Shown here in pieces: positions 23,596 to 50,249 of a DNA stretch of 64,000 nt. A program made the position numbers and the translations under genes. Source of the DNA: Hyphomicrobiales bacterium (lineage in GTDB: Bacteria > Pseudomonadota > Alphaproteobacteria > Rhizobiales > Methyloligellaceae); NCBI GenBank assembly GCA_021775555.1, contig JAJFHP010000057.1:124001-188000 (forward strand), read 5' to 3'. Every line of letters begins with the position of its first letter. Position 1 is the first letter of the stretch. Below the pieces are notes generated by a model that was not told where the DNA came from, searched no databases, and saw nothing but the letters and a program-made list of their open reading frames with translations.

Positions 23596-24267
23596 ATGGC
23601 AAAGACTGCGCGCGCCGGCAAATCAGAGGAATTTCGTAACCAGGACGAGATTACTCTTGGGGTCCTTACGGCGATCGAACACGATGCCAATTTGTCCCAG
23701 AGAATGATTTCCACCGAGCTTGGTGTAGCTCTTGGACTGGCTAATGCTTATCTCAAACGCTGCGTGGGCAAGGGCTGGATCAAGATCCAGGAGGCCCCGA
23801 CCCGGAGATATGCCTATTATCTGACACCAAAAGGATTTTCGGAGAAAGCGCGTCTTACCGGAAATTATCTATCTGCATCATTCAATTTTTTCAGGCGGGC
23901 GCGCGAACAGATGGATGAACTTGTGGAGCTATGCGTGGCTAATGGCTGGCGGCGCATTGCATACGCTGGCATATCTGAGCTTGCTGAGGTGGGCATGCTA
24001 TGTGCGCAGGAATTTGACATTACGATCGTTGCCATCATTGATCCCTATGCAGAACAAACCCAATTTCGCCGTTTACCTGTCATCTCGAAAATTTCAAAAT
24101 CTGATCATATTGATGCCGTCATCGTCACTGAACTGTCTCGCCCGCAGGAAGTGTGCAAATTGATTGAAGCATCTGTGGGGGCAGAACATATGCTCGTTCC
24201 GCGGTTGTTAAAAATTACGCCGCGGCCCGGGATCAGTGATGAGAAGGTAAAACAGGCTGCGGGATGA
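23596..24267 (+). CDS. winged-helix transcriptional regulator with C-terminal Rossmann-like domain
   Basis: N-terminal wHTH (LTAIEHDANLSQRMISTELGVALGLANAYLKRCVGKGWIKIQEAPTRRYAYYLTPKGFSEKARLT); C-terminal RRIAYAGISELAEVGMLCAQEFDITIVAIIDPYAEQTQFRRLPVISKI... resembles Rossmann-like domains of polysaccharide-locus proteins. Confidence 0.8.
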   Translation: MAKTARAGKSEEFRNQDEITLGVLTAIEHDANLSQRMISTELGVALGLANAYLKRCVGKGWIKIQEAPTRRYAYYLTPKGFSEKARLTGNYLSASFNFFRRAREQMDELVELCVANGWRRIAYAGISELAEVGMLCAQEFDITIVAIIDPYAEQTQFRRLPVISKISKSDHIDAVIVTELSRPQEVCKLIEASVGAEHMLVPRLLKITPRPGISDEKVKQAAG

Positions 24268-24767
24268 AGCGCTGGTATGCCGTCTATACCCAGCCGCATA
24301 AGGAAATGCTGGCGCGAGAGCATCTGGAGCGGCAGGGGTTTGATGTTTTTGCGCCCCGTTATCTCAAGCGGCGCCGACATGCACGCCGGGTTGAGGATGT
24401 GCCGGCTTCCCTTTTCCCGCGCTACATTTTTGTTGCCTTCGATGTGAGCGAGCCCTCTTGGAGAGTTATCAGATCTACACGAGGGGTCGCTGATTTGGTG
24501 CGCAGTGGCCTCGATCCTGTCCCATTGCCCTTTGAATTACTTCAGGAGATCAAAGATCGCTCAGGAGATGACGGGTATGTGGCTCTGGCGCGCAGTGATC
24601 AATTGAAAGCTGGCGCAAAGCTCCGGATCGAGTCAGGACCATTCGCTGAATGTGAGGCAATTTTCCAGTCATTACGCGACGAGGACCGGGTTGTTGTTTT
24701 GTTGTCGGTTCTGGGTCGAATAGTGAAAACCCAGTTGTCCGTTGATATCATGACGCCGGTTGGCTAA
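24264..24767 (+). CDS. NusG paralogue, RfaH-type transcription antitermination factor
   Basis: 167 aa; MKRWYAVYTQPHKEMLAREHLERQGFDVFAPRY...LFPRYIFVAFDVSEPSWRVIRSTRGVADLVRSGLDPVPLP, RfaH-like NGN domain plus KOW-like tail GPFAECEAIFQSL. Confidence 0.9.
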   Translation: MKRWYAVYTQPHKEMLAREHLERQGFDVFAPRYLKRRRHARRVEDVPASLFPRYIFVAFDVSEPSWRVIRSTRGVADLVRSGLDPVPLPFELLQEIKDRSGDDGYVALARSDQLKAGAKLRIESGPFAECEAIFQSLRDEDRVVVLLSVLGRIVKTQLSVDIMTPVG

Positions 24768-26528: not shown

Positions 26529-26558
26529 TTCAAACTATCCGGCCTCGTTTACCACACC

Positions 26559-26573
26559 GTTCGTCTCGTGAAC
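26559..26573. promoter_or_regulatory. degenerate operator-like palindrome GTTCGT-CTC-GTGAAC
   Basis: Same architecture as 23554 and 26593 motifs; 30 bp upstream of aldo/keto reductase start (26528). Confidence 0.45.
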
Positions 26574-26592
26574 ATTATGCCTTGACCATACC

Positions 26593-26607
26593 GTTCATAT
26601 CATGAAC
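26593..26607. promoter_or_regulatory. operator-like palindrome GTTCAT-ATC-ATGAAC
   Basis: Perfect 6-bp arms with 3-nt spacer in divergent control region of the leg operon. Confidence 0.55.
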
Positions 26608-26701
26608 AGTATATCCTGCATTTTCCGACAGCCCAAGATCATCGTCTTGGGTGTATCGAACTTAAAGCCTATTTGATGGTTGGCGGCAACGTCACCCAAA
26701 T

Positions 26702-26713
26702 GGCGGTAGCGTG
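26702..26713 (+). promoter_or_regulatory. ops-like element (exact GGCGGTAGCGTG), with a degenerate copy GGCGGCAACGT 20 bp upstream (26682-26692)
   Basis: Identical to the ops core of enterobacterial JUMPStart leaders, on the coding strand, about 115 nt upstream of the first gene of the plus-strand train; RfaH-type gene at 24264-24767. Confidence 0.7.
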
Positions 26714-26828
26714 TTTTCTCAGTTCACAACCTCAGCTGTTCAATGGCTGATATTATGAGATCATGCAGACACGTATCATTGCTATCCGCCAACCAATTTG
26801 CAAAACGATTTAAGATACACGCATTACA

Positions 26829-40187: not shown

Positions 40188-42101
40188 ATGCCAAAAGAAA
40201 ACTTCGTAATTGTGGAAAGCATCGGCGCGTCACAGCATTATCTGAACGGTAAATCCGGAAATGCGGATGAGACCTTTCTCACCACATCTCCCTCTGTTTT
40301 TGAGCATCTACGAGCAAGCGGTTCTCGGGTATTGTTCATGGATGCTGATTTGACTTTAAACGAAGCAGACCGTGTCGGATATGCAGCCATCCATGCTGCT
40401 AATTCAATATCAGAAAGTTTGAACCAAAACTCCGATAGCCTGGGCGTGTCCCGGGTGGGTGATGCACTCAAGGCGGATATTCAACGCCTCGTTTGCTGCC
40501 TTTTATACAAGGCACGCATTTTTGATCCTTGGGTTGCAAAATCTCAAGGGAATCTGGTCAATGTGGGTCATGCCGATCTCACTCCGGTAAAAGGGCTGAC
40601 AACGGGTCTGGGAAGATTCGATACGGTTTTTACTCTGTTCGCAGCGCATCACGGGCTTGAGATAATTCCGCACGTTGCGGAGATTCCCAAATGTGCCCAG
40701 CCAAATGGTGATTTCCTGCAAGTGACGTCCTGGACGCGGTTCATAACGATGATCAACATGCCCCTACCTGTAGTTTTTTTCAGAATTCTCAAGCGTTTCA
40801 GACGATGGGCCCAACCGACCAGCAAAAAACCGATTGTAGGCATTTTTTCAAGTAATGAACTGATCGAGGAAACCGCTCTTGCACTTAGCCGGGAAGGGGC
40901 ATTCGTCACATTCGCACCTGCTGGAATGATGGGCTCCGATCAATCAAATGACCGCCAGAGCGAGGGTGTGGCCAGATCACTTAAGATAGATGAGGCCATT
41001 AAGGAGGGTGTACACAAAGCCAAACTTGGATGGACTGCCAGCATGGATCCTATACCCGGTGTTGTTACAGAGCGATTGGGTGCTGCTTTGGGGTACGTTC
41101 CAGCGGCATTGGAGAGAGCAAAGGGATATGTGAATAGTTGCGAGAAACTGATGATTAAGGGCCCGTTTGGAGTGGTAGCAAACTTCATTTCCAGTCCTGC
41201 GGATATTCTCCTGAGTGATGTATTGAAAAGTGAAAACATTCCCGTCTTTGTGTTCGATCATGGCGTTGGCCCAGGTTTGGATTGGCATCACAAAGCATAT
41301 TTCGATGCAGGGTTTTCACCGGTTGCTGATATTCCGATTTCACACAATTCAGTGCAGCACAAGGTCATGGCAGATGTGCGTGGTGATCATATCGATCATG
41401 GCCTCGTTGCTGGCGCACCGAGTATACTTCGAAAGATCGGTTTTCGAGAAATTCAACGAAGTCTCGTTCGCCGTCACCTGGGTATCGAAGACAAACTTCT
41501 GTGCTGGGTGTCTGGTCTTTACCCCAACAATATGCAGCGCCAGCCACACTATTATCTCGATGGGCCTTATCACGAGTTGCGGCGAGAAATTGTTTATGAC
41601 GTTCTCGGGAAAGCGCCTTACGATGTTCTTTTCAAGCTCTATCCAACGTTGCGATATATCGATGGCGACCCCTTCGCCAATAAAATGGAATTGCCGGCTA
41701 ATTGCCGCTCAGAGATGCTGATAGATTTCCGTAATTTTCGCGCCGCATCCGACGTAACTATAATTGATGAACCTGGCAGCGGTGTTGCGTGGTGCTGGGG
41801 GCTCGATCGGCCGCTCATTTACCTGGATACGCAGGTCCGTCTTTTACCAGAAGTTGCACGTGCCTTTTCCGAAGCGATTTTCTACGTTGATACTGAACAG
41901 AAAGACTGGAAATCCGAATTGTTGTCACTGGTGACAATGCCATATGACGAACTTGCCTCAGCCTATCGTGATAAAGCCAAAATTCGTGAAGAGATAGCCC
42001 ATGACTATATCTTTGGGCCGGGCGGAAAGCCGGGAGCGCGTGCAGCAAACTATATTACTCAAACAATTGCCGAGTGTAGTACGATGAGCGGCACACTGTG
42101 A
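40188..42101 (+). CDS. capsule/CDP-glycerol-transferase-like protein of unknown specificity (637 aa)
   Basis: Intact 637 aa ORF; C-terminal VTIIDEPGSGVAWCWGLDRPLIYLDTQVRLLPEVARAFSEAIFYVD resembles GT-B capsule proteins; family call tentative. Confidence 0.55.
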   Translation: MPKENFVIVESIGASQHYLNGKSGNADETFLTTSPSVFEHLRASGSRVLFMDADLTLNEADRVGYAAIHAANSISESLNQNSDSLGVSRVGDALKADIQRLVCCLLYKARIFDPWVAKSQGNLVNVGHADLTPVKGLTTGLGRFDTVFTLFAAHHGLEIIPHVAEIPKCAQPNGDFLQVTSWTRFITMINMPLPVVFFRILKRFRRWAQPTSKKPIVGIFSSNELIEETALALSREGAFVTFAPAGMMGSDQSNDRQSEGVARSLKIDEAIKEGVHKAKLGWTASMDPIPGVVTERLGAALGYVPAALERAKGYVNSCEKLMIKGPFGVVANFISSPADILLSDVLKSENIPVFVFDHGVGPGLDWHHKAYFDAGFSPVADIPISHNSVQHKVMADVRGDHIDHGLVAGAPSILRKIGFREIQRSLVRRHLGIEDKLLCWVSGLYPNNMQRQPHYYLDGPYHELRREIVYDVLGKAPYDVLFKLYPTLRYIDGDPFANKMELPANCRSEMLIDFRNFRAASDVTIIDEPGSGVAWCWGLDRPLIYLDTQVRLLPEVARAFSEAIFYVDTEQKDWKSELLSLVTMPYDELASAYRDKAKIREEIAHDYIFGPGGKPGARAANYITQTIAECSTMSGTL

Positions 42102-42227
42102 GTATGACGGATTGCATCAGGATATTCAGCGATCGACACGCTTGCTGTGCTGTGCAGATTGACTGGTATCGCCCGGTCATTGGATGTAAAAGAACCTTGG
42201 CTGACTGCTAAGAGGGATGTCCGTATC

Positions 42228-44027
42228 ATGAGAGTTTTATTTATCCACCCCGAACGCTACATGAATATCGGCATTCCATCTGGCATAGCAACTTTGAGTG
42301 CTCTGATTAAACAGCATGGGCATCAAGTTGATCTCTTCGATACGACGCTTTTGAAGCCTACGACTGATGGTGCCGGCCACAATGTTTCTGCGGACGAGGC
42401 AGAAAAAATCATAGCTGCGGGCGATGAAGCATCACCCGGGAGAAAAAACCAGATTGGCGTTTTCAAGCAAACAGCTATTACGCTGGAAGACTTGCTCGCA
42501 GATGATCCCGTTGTTGATTATGCGGAAGTATTTCAGAAAAAAATCGACAGCTTCTCACCTGACCTCATAGCAGTTTCGGCCATGACAACCACCTTCGACT
42601 TTGCATGTGAGCTTTTGCGGAAGGTGAAATTCGACGCCAAGGTCATTGTTGGTGGCGTGCATGCAACAATCGCCCCGGATGATTGCCTTGCCCAGGACGT
42701 CATAGATATCGTTTGTATCGGGGAAGCAGACGATACCTTCGTGGAATTGTGCAATCATATGGCTGCTGGAACGGACTATACAAATGTCCATTCCATGTAC
42801 ATCAAGATGCCAGGTGGTGAAATCAAGAAGAATCCACTCTCAGCCAGATTCCACGACCTGGACAGCTTGCCGACACCTGACTGGTCCATTTTTGACGAAC
42901 GCCATTTATTCCGCCCGTATGACGGTCAGATATACAAGGGTTCCCTGTACTCCCAAGCCAGAGGGTGCCCCATGAGATGCACCTACTGTGTAGATCCGAC
43001 CATAGCAAATATCACCGGTGGGCGGAGTGGGTACTTCCGCTATCAGTCTCCGCAAACGACCTACAATCAATTGAAGGATCTTTATGATCTGCATGGCGCG
43101 ACGTGGTTTAAATTTGTAGATGACACTTTCTTGCTGCCGCCGGTCGAACATCTTGAGGAACTCCGGGATTTAATCAAACCGATGAACCTCAAATTCGGTT
43201 GTTCCGTGATGCCCAATACTATCAAACCGGAAAAGGTTGCACTTGCCCGCGAAATGGGATGTGTTGCCATGAGTATCGGTGTTGAAAGCGGTGATCCGGA
43301 TATTCGCCAGACCGTTATGCGCAAATACAAGAATGAGGATTTGATCGAGCGGTTAAAAGTTGTGCGAGATCATGACATCCGGATTTCAACATTCAATATG
43401 ATCGGATTTCCTGGTGAATCTCGTGAGCAGGTTTTCCGCACCGTCGAGCTAAATCGCAATCTCGGGGCGGACGCGTGTAATGTTTACATTCTTTACCCTT
43501 ACCCGGGTTCTCCTATCGCTCTCCAGCACAAGATACCGCTGAGAGACAGAAATGGCCGTATTCCTGAGGCGACCAAAGGTGGCCGGCTGGGACTCTCGAA
43601 AATGGGTGAGGACGAACTGGAGGGCCTTCGCCAGACATTCAATGTATATCTCCATTCGCCCAAGTCACTTTGGCCCTTGGTCAAGCTGGCGGAAAAGGCA
43701 GATGAAAAGGGTGGGACAGTTCTCGAAATGACGAAACAGTTCGTTATCGAATTGCTGATCGGGGAGGAAATTTCTACCGTCGCAGTCTCGAACATCATAT
43801 TGGACCCTGAACTGGTCAGTTCTGATGATCCTGAATTGCAAATCCCGACGGTGTTCGCCCCGATTTTTGAACTGGGCTACGATCATGAAACATTTGTAAA
43901 AATACTTGAAGCGTTTCGGTGTTACGCCAGCGGTGAGGACGAAGTAGACGAAAATTCAGATGTACATCGCGATCCAGAGATAGTGGACGAAGCGCCATTT
44001 GCAGGGGAACTGCGGTCATTCGTTTGA
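42228..44027 (+). CDS. B12-binding-domain radical SAM protein
   Basis: N-terminal cobalamin-binding-like FIHPERYMNIGIPSGIATLSALIKQHGHQVDLFDTT, GGVHATIAPDDCL; radical SAM CPMRCTYC (CX3CX2C); GVESGDPDIRQTVMRKYKNEDLIERL. Confidence 0.92.
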   Translation: MRVLFIHPERYMNIGIPSGIATLSALIKQHGHQVDLFDTTLLKPTTDGAGHNVSADEAEKIIAAGDEASPGRKNQIGVFKQTAITLEDLLADDPVVDYAEVFQKKIDSFSPDLIAVSAMTTTFDFACELLRKVKFDAKVIVGGVHATIAPDDCLAQDVIDIVCIGEADDTFVELCNHMAAGTDYTNVHSMYIKMPGGEIKKNPLSARFHDLDSLPTPDWSIFDERHLFRPYDGQIYKGSLYSQARGCPMRCTYCVDPTIANITGGRSGYFRYQSPQTTYNQLKDLYDLHGATWFKFVDDTFLLPPVEHLEELRDLIKPMNLKFGCSVMPNTIKPEKVALAREMGCVAMSIGVESGDPDIRQTVMRKYKNEDLIERLKVVRDHDIRISTFNMIGFPGESREQVFRTVELNRNLGADACNVYILYPYPGSPIALQHKIPLRDRNGRIPEATKGGRLGLSKMGEDELEGLRQTFNVYLHSPKSLWPLVKLAEKADEKGGTVLEMTKQFVIELLIGEEISTVAVSNIILDPELVSSDDPELQIPTVFAPIFELGYDHETFVKILEAFRCYASGEDEVDENSDVHRDPEIVDEAPFAGELRSFV

Positions 44028-45501: not shown

Positions 45502-47013
45502 ATGAAAAATTTCAAAGAAGTTGAAGCAACCCGGCGCGCGTATCATGCAGATGCCACCCTCAACAGCGTGCATCGTGCATCGCTTCTGGTGCCTGAGTTG
45601 CCCAATACAAATGTTGAGATTAGCTTTCTCAATCACTTCCTGATAAAACGGGACTTCAAGAAGGTGGCCTGCAGGGTCACAGCCATTGATGCGCAGGGAA
45701 ATCGTATCGAGAGCCGGCTCCATCCTGTTACGGAGCCGCGTGTCTATACGATACCTCTGACCGGTATGGTTGAGACTGAAGTTGTCACATATCTGGTGGA
45801 ATTTTTTGCGGCCGAAAATCTCTTTATTCCGTTCCCGGCGGTCATGGTGAACCATCGCGGCGATGGTTTCGTCAATACGGTGCACGCATTCAACCGCGTT
45901 CTCAACGATGTGTTTGAGGATGACTCAGTCAATGCAACCTCCATAGCGGAAGCATCCATCGATGTTTCATTGGGAGATGACATCGACACGGTTGCCTATT
46001 TCATGGCGGGTCAACAGCCCTGCAAAGGGGATGTCGAGCTTGAGTTGTCGGTCAATGGTGAAACGCGTACCGCCAAGGTTCCCGTTGACGTGGCGCGTTT
46101 TCAGCGCAAGCCGCTTTCGCTGAAGCAGGCATTTCCGGGCATCAATACCGATGGCGGCGTCTTAAAAATCCGTCAACCCCAACAGTTCATGTTCTACGGA
46201 CGGATGTTTGTCGCGATGGAACGTTCTGATGGGTCCTTCTCTGGAAATCATAGCTACTACGACATGTCGCATGTCGAGGAATATTGGGACGATGCACGGC
46301 CTTCGACACGGATCTACCCCTTCTTTCAGGCGTTCGAAAACAAGCTGCGTATGTATCCGATCATGTCGCCTGGTGAACTGGAAATCGCGGTTGAATTTTT
46401 CAATGGTGCAGGAGGATCACTGGGAACTGCTAATGTTGGGAAACTGAAAAACCCCTCTTCAGAATATATCGATTTTTCAATCGATGAAGGCGCGTCCTCT
46501 ATGGGGATCGAACGCAGTGATATTACAGGATTTGTTGTGACCGCCACTCCAGCGTCCGGAAATACACCAACCCGTGTGAACCATCAGCTGGTTTATTGTG
46601 ATCGGGGTGAAAACAGTCAGTTGGCGGCATCTGTGAATGTATCTCTATTCAATCCCAATATTTTTCAACCCAAGAAGAAAAAAGGCCTCACATGGGGACA
46701 AGCTACTGTGGGTGATGATGTTTCCACCACGCTTGGCATTGTCCGTAATTTTCCTGAGGGCGAAACAGAAAATGTTCAGGTCTGTTTTTATTCAGAAGCT
46801 GGCGAAATCCTCGTTCAGGACTACGAGCTTCCTCCAACAGGCTCTATCATTCTGGATGTTGCGGAGCTCGTGTCTGAGCATATAGACACCGGATCGGAGT
46901 CAGATCCGCATAATATTTGGTATGAAGTACGCTCTGAGCGTCCGGACATTTCGGCTTTTGTCGCGTCTCGTCATGGCGCAACGGGCCATTGCACTGGCGA
47001 GCACTCTTACTGA
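45502..47013 (+). CDS. hypothetical protein of unknown family (503 aa)
   Basis: Intact ORF with own spacing in the gene train; no recognised motif; beta-rich-looking composition. Confidence 0.7.
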   Translation: MKNFKEVEATRRAYHADATLNSVHRASLLVPELPNTNVEISFLNHFLIKRDFKKVACRVTAIDAQGNRIESRLHPVTEPRVYTIPLTGMVETEVVTYLVEFFAAENLFIPFPAVMVNHRGDGFVNTVHAFNRVLNDVFEDDSVNATSIAEASIDVSLGDDIDTVAYFMAGQQPCKGDVELELSVNGETRTAKVPVDVARFQRKPLSLKQAFPGINTDGGVLKIRQPQQFMFYGRMFVAMERSDGSFSGNHSYYDMSHVEEYWDDARPSTRIYPFFQAFENKLRMYPIMSPGELEIAVEFFNGAGGSLGTANVGKLKNPSSEYIDFSIDEGASSMGIERSDITGFVVTATPASGNTPTRVNHQLVYCDRGENSQLAASVNVSLFNPNIFQPKKKKGLTWGQATVGDDVSTTLGIVRNFPEGETENVQVCFYSEAGEILVQDYELPPTGSIILDVAELVSEHIDTGSESDPHNIWYEVRSERPDISAFVASRHGATGHCTGEHSY

Positions 47014-47188: not shown

Positions 47189-48397
47189 GTGACTGATCTG
47201 CCAGCTATAGGTGACAGCAAGAGCATTTCGATTGATGTGTCGGAGGGTCTTGTTGAGGCCTTTGCAGAGTTCAGTGGTGATCGAAATCCGCTCCACCTTG
47301 ATGATGACTTTGCACGAGAACTGGGATTCGCCGGCAGGGTGATCCATGGAATGAGTTATGCCAGCTTCCTGTCAACATTGATCGGAATGCATCTGCCCGG
47401 TCATGGAGCCTTGTGGGCCTCTCAAACCATCCGGTTTTCCGCTCCGGCATTTATAGGTGATCAAATCGAGTTGAGTGGAACGGTTACAAGGGTCGATACA
47501 CCAACAAGAACCGTTCGGATGAGTGTCGAAGCTGTCAATCAGAATGGCGAACATTTGATGGCGGGCGAAAGTGAAATTGTCATGCCACGCTCAAAAGGCG
47601 AATTGTTACCCGAAGGCAAGGCGAGCACTTCAGGGGCAGCAGATAAAAGTCAGTCAGGTGTCAGGGTTGCAATTTTAGCTGGCGCATCAGGAGACCTTGG
47701 ATCGGCAATAGCTAAGACATTATCTGCAGCAGGGTATAGCGTTGCGCTGGGTGGCCGGCGCATATCAAAGCTTGAAGCATTGGCGACCTCACTCAATGCG
47801 ACAGGGAGCAAATGTCTCCCGGTGGCGCTTGATCTGAGAGACGACAAATCCGTTGCTGCGGCCATTGAAGCTACAAACCAGTCACTGGGCTCCGTTTCCC
47901 TGGTTGTACATTGCGCGACTCTCGGATTGGAAAATTTGGCGGCCAAAGATCTGACACAAGAAACTCTCGCAGCAAATCTGGATGTGCAGGCCGGTGGGCT
48001 GTTGCGCCTGTTCAATGGAACGATTGATGGTATGTGCCAACGCGGTGACGGGCAGTTTATTTATATTGGCTCGACTGCAACTCAGGGACCTCCTCCCAAA
48101 GGACTGGCGGCTTATACGGCAGCCAAGGCATCTGGCAAGTCGCTTGCACGCTCGATTGGTCTTGAATATGCCCATGCCGGAGTGAGATCTAATATCGTCT
48201 CACCATACTTTCTGGATACGGGGCTTAATGCTCATGTTAGCGAAAAAGCGCGCATGTTGGCTTCGGCACGAACCCCATTGCGGCGTCTTGCAAACCTTGA
48301 GGAAGTGGCCTCGATGGTTTCTTTCCTCGCCTCTGATACGAGTAATTTTGTCAACGGACATGATTTGATTGTCGATGGTGGAGTCACGATGGCTTAG
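47189..48397 (+). CDS. MaoC-like hydratase domain fused to SDR oxidoreductase (GTG start)
   Basis: N-terminal FAEFSGDRNPLHLDDDFARELGFAGRVIHGMSYASFLSTLIG (MaoC hot-dog); C-terminal VAILAGASGDLGSAIAKTLSAAGYSVALGGRR, YTAAKASGKSLARSIGLEYA, GHDLIVDGGVTMA (SDR). Confidence 0.92.
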   Translation: MTDLPAIGDSKSISIDVSEGLVEAFAEFSGDRNPLHLDDDFARELGFAGRVIHGMSYASFLSTLIGMHLPGHGALWASQTIRFSAPAFIGDQIELSGTVTRVDTPTRTVRMSVEAVNQNGEHLMAGESEIVMPRSKGELLPEGKASTSGAADKSQSGVRVAILAGASGDLGSAIAKTLSAAGYSVALGGRRISKLEALATSLNATGSKCLPVALDLRDDKSVAAAIEATNQSLGSVSLVVHCATLGLENLAAKDLTQETLAANLDVQAGGLLRLFNGTIDGMCQRGDGQFIYIGSTATQGPPPKGLAAYTAAKASGKSLARSIGLEYAHAGVRSNIVSPYFLDTGLNAHVSEKARMLASARTPLRRLANLEEVASMVSFLASDTSNFVNGHDLIVDGGVTMA

Positions 48398-48449
48398 AGA
48401 GCCTGCGTTTAATCCTCCTATCCTTGAGCCTATCAAACGACCAAAAATA

Positions 48450-50249
48450 ATGTCTTCACCCAGCCCATCATTGGAAGAGCTCCTGCTGGATTTCGAGCGG
48501 CAATCACTTGCTCGTTGTGAGCTAATGAAGGAATTGGATAGCACGCCTACAACGCTGTCCTATCTGAAATATGGCCAGTTGTTGCCTGAGCCCCTGAAGC
48601 CAAGAAAAATTGCACTGCTTACACCCTTTACGCTTGAAACGATCCGTCCGTTTTTGGATGTGGAATGCTATCTGTCAGGATGGCGTTGTGATCCGGTGTT
48701 CTACCAATACAGTCAGTGGCAACCAGCACTGTTTGATCTGGCCGGTGACGAAAGTTGTGATGTTGATGCGGTGTTGTTGTTGCTTGATGACGCCACCCTG
48801 ATTGAGGGTCTGGGAGAGACGCCAGCCAAGGCTGCTTCTGCATTATTGGGAATGCTTGAGGCATTTCGAAATTCTTCGCAGATACCATTATTCCTGGGGC
48901 CTGCGCCATCTCGACCGCACGATGGATCCTTGCCCCAAACCGTGGCTGAGAACGGTCGTTCATTAGCCATGGTCCAGGCTGCCAATTCAGCGCTGGTGAA
49001 TTTTACTGATAAGGCGAAAGATACATATCTGATCAATTTCCCCGAGACCGTGACAGAACTCGGTGCAGGCTGGCATGATCCTAAAGCTTTCGCTGCAAAC
49101 TTGTCTTACCTGACGCATTCGGGGCTGAGGGTGCTGGCTCGAGATATAGCCCGTACGGTTGGCCCTTTGTTTGTGCCACCGCGCAAAGTGCTTGTGACCG
49201 ATCTCGACAACACATTTTGGGGCGGCATCGTTGGCGAAGACGGGATAGAAGGGGTTCTGCTTGGCCCCCAGGGCAAGGGTGCACCCTACAAAAAATACCA
49301 GCAATTTCTTTGTCAGTTACGTGAAACCGGAACATTGCTAGCCATAGCTTCCAAAAACAATCTTGATGATGCACGTGCTGTTTTTGGAGAGCGAGCCGAC
49401 GATTTGTCCGTTGGCTGGGACAAGTTCAGCGCGGTCCGCATCGACTGGAATGACAAAGCTGAAAACCTGATTCAGATTTCAGACGAGCTGGGTTTGGGGC
49501 TGGATGCATTCGTATTTGTTGATGACAGCCCGGTCGAGTGTGAACGCGTAAGACAAGCTTTACCAATGGTTACGGTCATCCAGGCTGGTGATGGTGTTGA
49601 TGGTTTGCCGGAACGAATAGCAGCAAGCCGGGCCTTCGATATTTTGTCTGTATCAGATGATGACAGAGAGCGGGCGGGCAGGTATCAGACCGACCGGCAG
49701 AGATCCGAGGCTAAAAATACAGCAGGTAATGTGAATGATTTCCTGGCGTCTCTGGACCTGACACTCACTGTTGACGTGCTTGATGATGAGAACCGTGAGC
49801 GGGCGCATCAGTTGATGAATAAGACCAACCAGTTTCATCTCACCCTTGAGAGGCCAACGCCTGTCGATTTGTTCCAACGGGCTGAAGGCAACAATGAAAT
49901 CTACTGCGTTAAGCTTCGAGACAAATTCGGCGACTACGGTATTATCGCCGTCCTTGAGCTGGAGCCACAGGACAAGGCAATTGATATACGGAATTTGGTT
50001 ATTAGCTGCAGGGCCCTGGGACGACATGTGGAAGATGCCCTTGTTGCGTTTGCTGGGATTAGGGCAAGGCAAAAGGGATTGAGTTCAGTAAAAACGCAAT
50101 TCGTGGCAGGACCTCGAAATCAGCAGGTACCAGAAGCATTAGGGCGTATAGGTTTTTCCCAATCTGGCGAGGCTGAGGGTCAGACCCAGTACGTATTGTC
50201 GTCAGGTGAGACAACTACGTCTTGGCCCGAATATTTGAAATTGGATTGA
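48450..50249 (+). CDS. FkbH-like HAD-superfamily IIIC protein
   Basis: VLVTDLDNTFWGGIVGEDGIEGVLLGP, LLAIASKNNLDDARAVF, FVFVDDSPVECERVRQALP; C-terminal GNAT-like segment. Confidence 0.92.
   Translation: MSSPSPSLEELLLDFERQSLARCELMKELDSTPTTLSYLKYGQLLPEPLKPRKIALLTPFTLETIRPFLDVECYLSGWRCDPVFYQYSQWQPALFDLAGDESCDVDAVLLLLDDATLIEGLGETPAKAASALLGMLEAFRNSSQIPLFLGPAPSRPHDGSLPQTVAENGRSLAMVQAANSALVNFTDKAKDTYLINFPETVTELGAGWHDPKAFAANLSYLTHSGLRVLARDIARTVGPLFVPPRKVLVTDLDNTFWGGIVGEDGIEGVLLGPQGKGAPYKKYQQFLCQLRETGTLLAIASKNNLDDARAVFGERADDLSVGWDKFSAVRIDWNDKAENLIQISDELGLGLDAFVFVDDSPVECERVRQALPMVTVIQAGDGVDGLPERIAASRAFDILSVSDDDRERAGRYQTDRQRSEAKNTAGNVNDFLASLDLTLTVDVLDDENRERAHQLMNKTNQFHLTLERPTPVDLFQRAEGNNEIYCVKLRDKFGDYGIIAVLELEPQDKAIDIRNLVISCRALGRHVEDALVAFAGIRARQKGLSSVKTQFVAGPRNQQVPEALGRIGFSQSGEAEGQTQYVLSSGETTTSWPEYLKLD

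Follow-up and report, generated by a model that had tools for sequence, protein, structure and literature searches.

The leader preceding a long glycan operon in an alphaproteobacterium contains a 12-nt sequence identical to the ops element of E. coli, which raises the question of whether this sequence is a true ops-type element, read there by an RfaH-like factor. The window (the whole 64,000-nt stretch of DNA under analysis) contains the 12-mer, the operon and, 1.9 kb upstream of the 12-mer, a gene for an RfaH-like NusG paralogue (NusGSP). A first-pass annotation, made from the letters alone, had brought these features together and suggested RfaH/ops-type antitermination, possibly with a duplicated recruitment site. 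The features concerned are the following.

23596 to 24267, plus strand: gene for a MarR/HTH EPS-associated regulator that immediately precedes and overlaps the NusGSP gene
24264 to 24767, plus strand: gene for the RfaH-like NusG paralogue (NusGSP), 167 aa, matching Pfam NusG and TIGR01955
25629 to 26528, minus strand: aldo-keto reductase gene, bordering the gap that holds the ops leader
26682 to 26692, plus strand: degenerate ops-like copy GGCGGCAACGT, 20 bp upstream of ops, of doubtful role
26702 to 26713, plus strand: ops element GGCGGTAGCGTG, an exact match, conserved in relatives
26703 to 26710, plus strand: core GCGGTAGC (ops positions 2-9), invariant in the family, with a putative single-strand DNA fold at the positions of the E. 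coli hairpin (PMC11001881)
26712 and 26713, plus strand: predicted pause, with the RNA 3' end at T11 (26712) and G12 at 26713; T11-G12 is present in the window ops
26829 to 61660, plus strand: glycan operon train with nonulosonic-acid-type sugar, capsule and glycosyltransferase genes

A check of the sequence agrees with the annotation that GGCGGTAGCGTG is an exact E. coli-type ops 12-mer on the coding strand, intergenic and within the operon leader. The 300-bp gap in which it lies (26529-26828) has the aldo-keto reductase gene on one side and the first operon ORF on the other. From T11 to the GTG of that ORF (26829) the distance is 117 nt, close to the 115 nt or so first estimated, and an in-frame ATG as the true start is not excluded. 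The element meets the leader criterion for ops, a position 5' of the first gene of a long operon (the transcription start has not been mapped), as well as the sequence criterion, 12 nt whose non-template strand carries the GCGGTAGC core with G5 and T6 in its loop. A sigma-70 promoter scan of the window leader gave no plus-strand match. The site is the sole exact copy of GGCGGTAGCGTG in the 3.54-Mb genome, for which chance predicts about 0.4 copies on both strands. Copies with up to two mismatches number three in the window, compared with 4.7 in shuffled sequences. Because such copies are no more numerous than in shuffles, the copy count is weak as proof; as far as sequence evidence goes, the weight of the window ops lies in its position and conservation, not in the count of 12-mers.

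The gene content of the long plus-strand glycan train that had been described 3' of ops is confirmed, and the train extends to about 61.6 kb. It encodes a LegC-type aminotransferase, PglD, NeuB, NeuC, CMP-sugar synthetases, capsule synthesis proteins and glycosyltransferases, the sugar genes being of the sialic/legionaminic type. That the ~35 kb train forms one continuous transcript is inferred.

Several other features of this region may be recorded in their own right. The operon includes a gene for a B12-binding radical SAM protein (42147-44027), near which three ORFs of 503-637 aa lack a Pfam match (40188-42101, 45502-47013 and 48369-50249). Between the aldo-keto reductase gene and the ops leader a palindromic operator-like sequence is present twice, as GTTCGTCTCGTGAAC and GTTCATATCATGAAC, 34 bp apart (26548-26612); it is kept in the nearest relative, L025, and is probably a regulator binding site. 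Within the leader, TGGTTGGCGG (26677-26686) is perfectly complementary to CCGCCAACCA (26786-26795), 99 nt downstream; a long-range RNA pairing of the two is possible and would involve the upstream ops-like copy. The product of the MarR-type gene scores 66 bits with TIGR04176, below the cut-off of 88.

The identification of the NusG paralogue as RfaH-like is upheld by profile scores of 77.9 bits for Pfam NusG and 131.4 bits for the NCBIfam RfaH model TIGR01955. The latter is its best-scoring family, although the equivalog cut-off of 144.5 bits is not reached; the curated LoaP model gives 51 bits and its cut-off of 125 is not met. The genome has only one other NusG-domain gene, that of the housekeeping NusG. 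Membership among NusGSPs is satisfied by an NGN domain, by the status of a second copy beside the housekeeping NusG, and by an RfaH/NusG-like fold; in Foldseek the protein matches RfaH and NusG, and the solved structures nearest to it are those of RfaH. In E. coli RfaH, K10 is required for ops contact, and autoinhibition depends on an alpha-helical KOW domain (E48-R138, F130). The window NusGSP keeps H20, R23, Q24, T72 and R73, has Q at K10 and A at E48, and retains the autoinhibition residues R138 and F130. None of the T6-pocket residues among them (H20, R23, Q24 and R73) is present in the genome's housekeeping NusG. In NusGSPs of other lineages H20 is frequently replaced by N, and R73 is mostly lost, only 5 of the 39 factors with an element next to their gene having retained it. 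This residue survey rules out a universal role of K10 and R73 as determinants in alphaproteobacterial NusGSPs. E48 is missing from most NusGSPs of the set, which are encoded in cis. AlphaFold (best of five models only) predicts a beta-barrel KOW both for the window NusGSP and for that of L067, a relative with the element adjacent to its NusGSP gene; such models are not proof of the free-state fold of NusGSPs.

A search for related loci queried with the window NusGSP alone found none, and whole-genome searches were therefore used. From a scan of the surroundings of NusGSP genes emerged an extended element, TCACCC-N4-[G/T]GCGGTAGC, which was counted as the pattern CACCCNNNNKGCGGTAGC in a set of 398 genomes from the order Rhizobiales, 78 of them with a NusGSP called at E <= 1e-15. 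It occurs in 58/78 NusGSP genomes and in 17/320 without NusGSP (Fisher 6e-37); the annotation had proposed a search of related genomes for co-occurrence of the 12-mer with the NusG paralogue. The third spacer base is A at 54 of 63 sites in NusGSP genomes and at only 3 of 17 sites elsewhere, and for this reason sites in genomes without NusGSP appear mostly chance-like. A stricter pattern was found in 36 of 385 genomes across the class, 33 of which have a NusGSP (Fisher 1e-20). Related genomes in these counts are not independent data points.

In most cases the element follows a NusGSP gene on the same strand, at a distance of 50-250 bp. At class level, this arrangement holds, at 59-244 bp, for 21 of 34 sites in NusGSP genomes. 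A scan of named genomes with the DNA pattern only returned at least 119 loci, mostly from Alphaproteobacteria and including Methylosinus, Bradyrhizobium, Blastochloris and Kiloniella; among the matches listed, 79 of the 106 with enough upstream sequence have a same-strand NusGSP gene whose end lies less than 400 bp before the element. In the 350 bp that follow NusGSP genes, counted without selection on the extended motif, GCGGTAGC has 44 copies on the same strand and none on the opposite one (0.43 expected per strand), and 39 of these 44 have TCACCC at identical spacing. In family elements a median of 103 nt separates T11 from the first possible start codon; E. coli ops lies within 100 nt of the start codon (PMC11001881).

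Lack of conservation of the 12-mer in relatives had been named as an outcome that would refute the annotation's reading. When this was checked, the reading was not refuted: the core GCGGTAGC proved invariant, while position 1 (G or T) varied, as did positions 10-12; T11 is present in 42 of 56 family sites and G12 in 33 of 56, neither being universal. Conservation of the full 12-mer is ruled out. In the paused complex of E. coli, the non-template strand of ops forms a hairpin in which G2:C9, C3:G8 and G4:A7 pair and G5 and T6 make up the loop (PMC11001881); RfaH recruitment is lowered or abolished when positions 3-8 are changed (PMC5995543). The bases concerned, C3 to G8, are invariant in the relatives. 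The element is scattered across deep branches of the NusGSP tree, which indicates that its association with NusGSPs is old. It is missing from 20 of 78 NusGSP genomes of the order, and the stricter pattern from 55 of 88 in the class sample; since some NusGSPs have no motif in their genome, not every such factor uses the element.

The alignment of leaders with the closest relative, also proposed at the outset, gave a concordant result. The NusGSP of L025 is 74% identical to that of the window, and gene order is kept (MarR, NusGSP, methyltransferase, reverse-strand aldo-keto reductase, leader). The two leaders have diverged to 73% identity over 156 bp, yet the ops 12-mer is exact in L025. The first operon gene differs between the two loci and ops is unchanged.

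Variant arrangements also occur. In a divergent NusGSP subgroup (L112, L117 and L118) the core is found downstream of the NusGSP gene in the context ctttggtggtGCGGTAGCcattct, without TCACCC, which is perhaps a second variant of the element. Some genomes (L073, L018, G165 and L196) carry two elements, which are 1.76 kb apart in L073, divergent in L018 and 183 bp apart in L196.

The TCACCC motif, which the first reading of the window missed, belongs to a second structure 5' of ops.

26647 to 26653, plus strand: TTGGGTG, predicted 5' arm, pairing with CACCCAA (26693-26699) over 7 bp with a large loop
26692 to 26697, plus strand: TCACCC, RNA-hairpin 3' arm, exactly 4 nt 5' of ops position 1

Folds and covariation identify TCACCC as the 3' arm of a nascent-RNA hairpin. 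In a fold test of 56 sites, the mean z was -1.4 and the arm was paired at 5.0 of 6 positions, compared with 3.5 in shuffles. Across 162 sites, covariation was seen at the first outer pair (132/158; 121 +- 2 shuffled), the second outer pair (101; 83 +- 3.5 shuffled) and the first inner pair (114/138; 71 +- 5 shuffled), with shuffles uncorrected for sequence relatedness. The third outer position had no covariation in these 162 sites, and the stem is accordingly taken to end 13 nt before T11. T-9 is present in 55 of 56 sites though it was not selected for, and the 3' arm is conserved beyond the needs of pairing. The window hairpin is weak, with z -1.0 and -1.03 in two folding tests, which is not significant for a single sequence. 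Its TTGGGTG 5' arm is the weakest part of the hairpin assignment in this genome, and the weak fold counts against a strong role for the hairpin in the window. An Rfam search of the window leader (E 5) found neither JUMPstart RF01707 nor another relevant RNA family, and a search of eight relatives at the gathering score found no JUMPstart or other relevant RNA match; the E. coli JUMPstart, as control, matched RF01707 at 61 bits. A JUMPstart-like architecture, in which an RNA hairpin abuts ops, is met at the family level by covariation.

The favoured reading, held at a probability of roughly 0.85, is that the leader contains a true ops-type element, read by the RfaH-like factor for antitermination of the operon. 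RNA polymerase in the leader would pause at T11 of GGCGGTAGCGTG, and non-template positions 2-9 would fold into a small DNA hairpin whose loop bases, G5 and T6, would be bound by the factor encoded upstream. The bound factor would remain on the polymerase and exclude NusG and Rho, and the ~35 kb operon would thereby be transcribed and translated to its end. The nascent RNA hairpin would form upstream, its base ~13 nt from the paused 3' end, where it would probably strengthen or time the pause or help to dock the factor. Comparison of sequences establishes that the element exists, is conserved, lies in one orientation and is coupled to NusGSP genes, and that the family RNA hairpin covaries. Pausing, NusGSP binding and recruitment, antitermination and any part played by the RNA hairpin are inferred, there being no expression or binding data. 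The 12-mer alone is weak, and the case becomes strong through comparison across genomes: coupling, direction, proximity and the invariant core lend strong comparative support to RfaH/ops-type recruitment in an alphaproteobacterium, as first suggested, with its function still inferred. A wider proposal, that a composite of RNA pause hairpin and non-template DNA hairpin loads cis-made, non-autoinhibited RfaH-like factors in Alphaproteobacteria, is tentative and falls somewhat short of even odds. Because most NusGSPs lack E48 and two are modelled with a beta-barrel KOW, ops pairing need not, perhaps, involve autoinhibition.

The same observations can be accounted for differently if the RNA hairpin is the real recruitment signal, bound by NusGSP in nascent RNA, and GCGGTAGC only pauses the polymerase. 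LoaP does bind a leader RNA hairpin (PMC12691694), and both the covariation and the surplus conservation of the 3' arm (T-9, 55/56) fit such a role. However, GCGGTAGC is invariant at G5 and T6 as well, bases that a consensus pause does not need (PMC5995543); L112, L117 and L118 keep the core without TCACCC; and the window combines a weak RNA hairpin with a NusGSP that keeps the T6-pocket residues. Direct recruitment by the RNA is on balance unlikely. The element might instead be a double-stranded DNA site for a regulator of initiation, for instance the MarR-type product of the gene adjoining NusGSP, given its intergenic location and the MarR-like gene directly upstream of NusGSP in 22 of 81 loci. 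Such a site is very hard to reconcile with the single orientation (44:0), the placement 50-250 bp downstream of a probably cotranscribed gene, a core that is not palindromic, covariation at the RNA level, and the absence of a detectable MarR-like neighbour at most loci with the element.

Two further alternatives concern the window itself. The upstream ops-like copy was suggested by the annotation to duplicate the recruitment site, which would imply a double pause. The copy does exist, 20 bp upstream; a DNA mini-hairpin can form in both window copies, L025 carries GGCGGTCGCGT at the same offset, and a GGTAGC copy is likewise found 21 bp upstream in the E. coli JUMPstart. Its interpretation as a duplicated site does not stand as well: among 162 elements, good matches at this offset are confined to the window (9/12) and L025 (10/12), none of the others reaching 8, and the upstream copy breaks the invariant core in both species, with C in place of T6 in the window and of A7 in L025. 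The stretch also overlaps the RNA hairpin region. As a family feature the tandem copy is ruled out, and in the window a second recruitment site is improbable. That the window 12-mer is a chance match, functionless at this locus even if the family element is genuine elsewhere, would suit the ~0.4 exact copies expected per genome, the loss of K10 and the weak RNA hairpin. Yet the genome's single copy sits in the operon leader, next to its one NusGSP gene, with TCACCC at the right spacing, and it persists in the diverged leader of L025 (73% over 156 bp) in front of a different first gene; coincidence is scarcely credible.

With the true ops-type element as the preferred reading, the locus resembles the ops-RfaH system of E. 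coli and Salmonella in its identical 12-mer (the family shares the DNA-hairpin core), in the position of ops ~100 nt before the first start codon, in the long envelope-glycan operon, and in an RfaH-like factor with, in the window protein, a T6 pocket. It differs in that the factor is encoded beside its target rather than alone, lacks E48 and K10, and has a KOW modelled as a beta barrel, whereas positions 1 and 10-12 of the element vary in the alphaproteobacterial family. No earlier report of ops in Alphaproteobacteria was found in the open-access papers searched (subscription papers were not covered).

JUMPstart RNA (RF01707) of Gammaproteobacteria likewise places a short RNA hairpin directly 5' of ops, and the distance from stem end to T11 is 12 nt in the E. 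coli rfb-leader JUMPstart and ~13 nt in the alphaproteobacterial family. In contrast to JUMPstart, the hairpin described here has another stem sequence (TCACCC 3' arm, variable loop), follows a NusGSP gene and is missed by Rfam. A JUMPstart-like hairpin of different sequence is new, and it points to hairpin plus ops as a layout in general use, in which the RNA hairpin keeps a fixed distance from the pause. LoaP of Bacillus is also a NusGSP with a conserved leader RNA hairpin (PMC12691694), but that hairpin is UNCG-type, without ops or pause, and the LoaP model scores the window NusGSP at 51 bits versus 125.

The closest counterparts of the factors are the clusters of Wang et al. 2020 (PMC7593976) and the monomorphic homologues (PMC13015549), which are RfaH-like and encoded beside envelope operons, with an HTH neighbour in one cluster, mostly no E48 salt bridge and a predicted beta KOW. 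For cis-encoded NusG paralogues the recruitment mode was stated to be unknown (PMC7593976), and a 2026 preprint reports that monomorphic RfaH homologues with beta KOW act without ops (PMC13015549), whereas here an ops-type element accompanies the factors. That cis-encoded, possibly non-autoinhibited factors make use of ops throughout the class is inferred as a new point. A class-wide ops-type element would be a concrete recruitment signal for NusGSPs, from which target operons become predictable from DNA, and its many natural variants could serve to test the coevolution of ops and RfaH positions. In the current literature, ops reading and autoinhibition arose together, late in RfaH evolution; if the present inference is true, ops reading is independent of fold-switch autoinhibition, contrary to that scheme.
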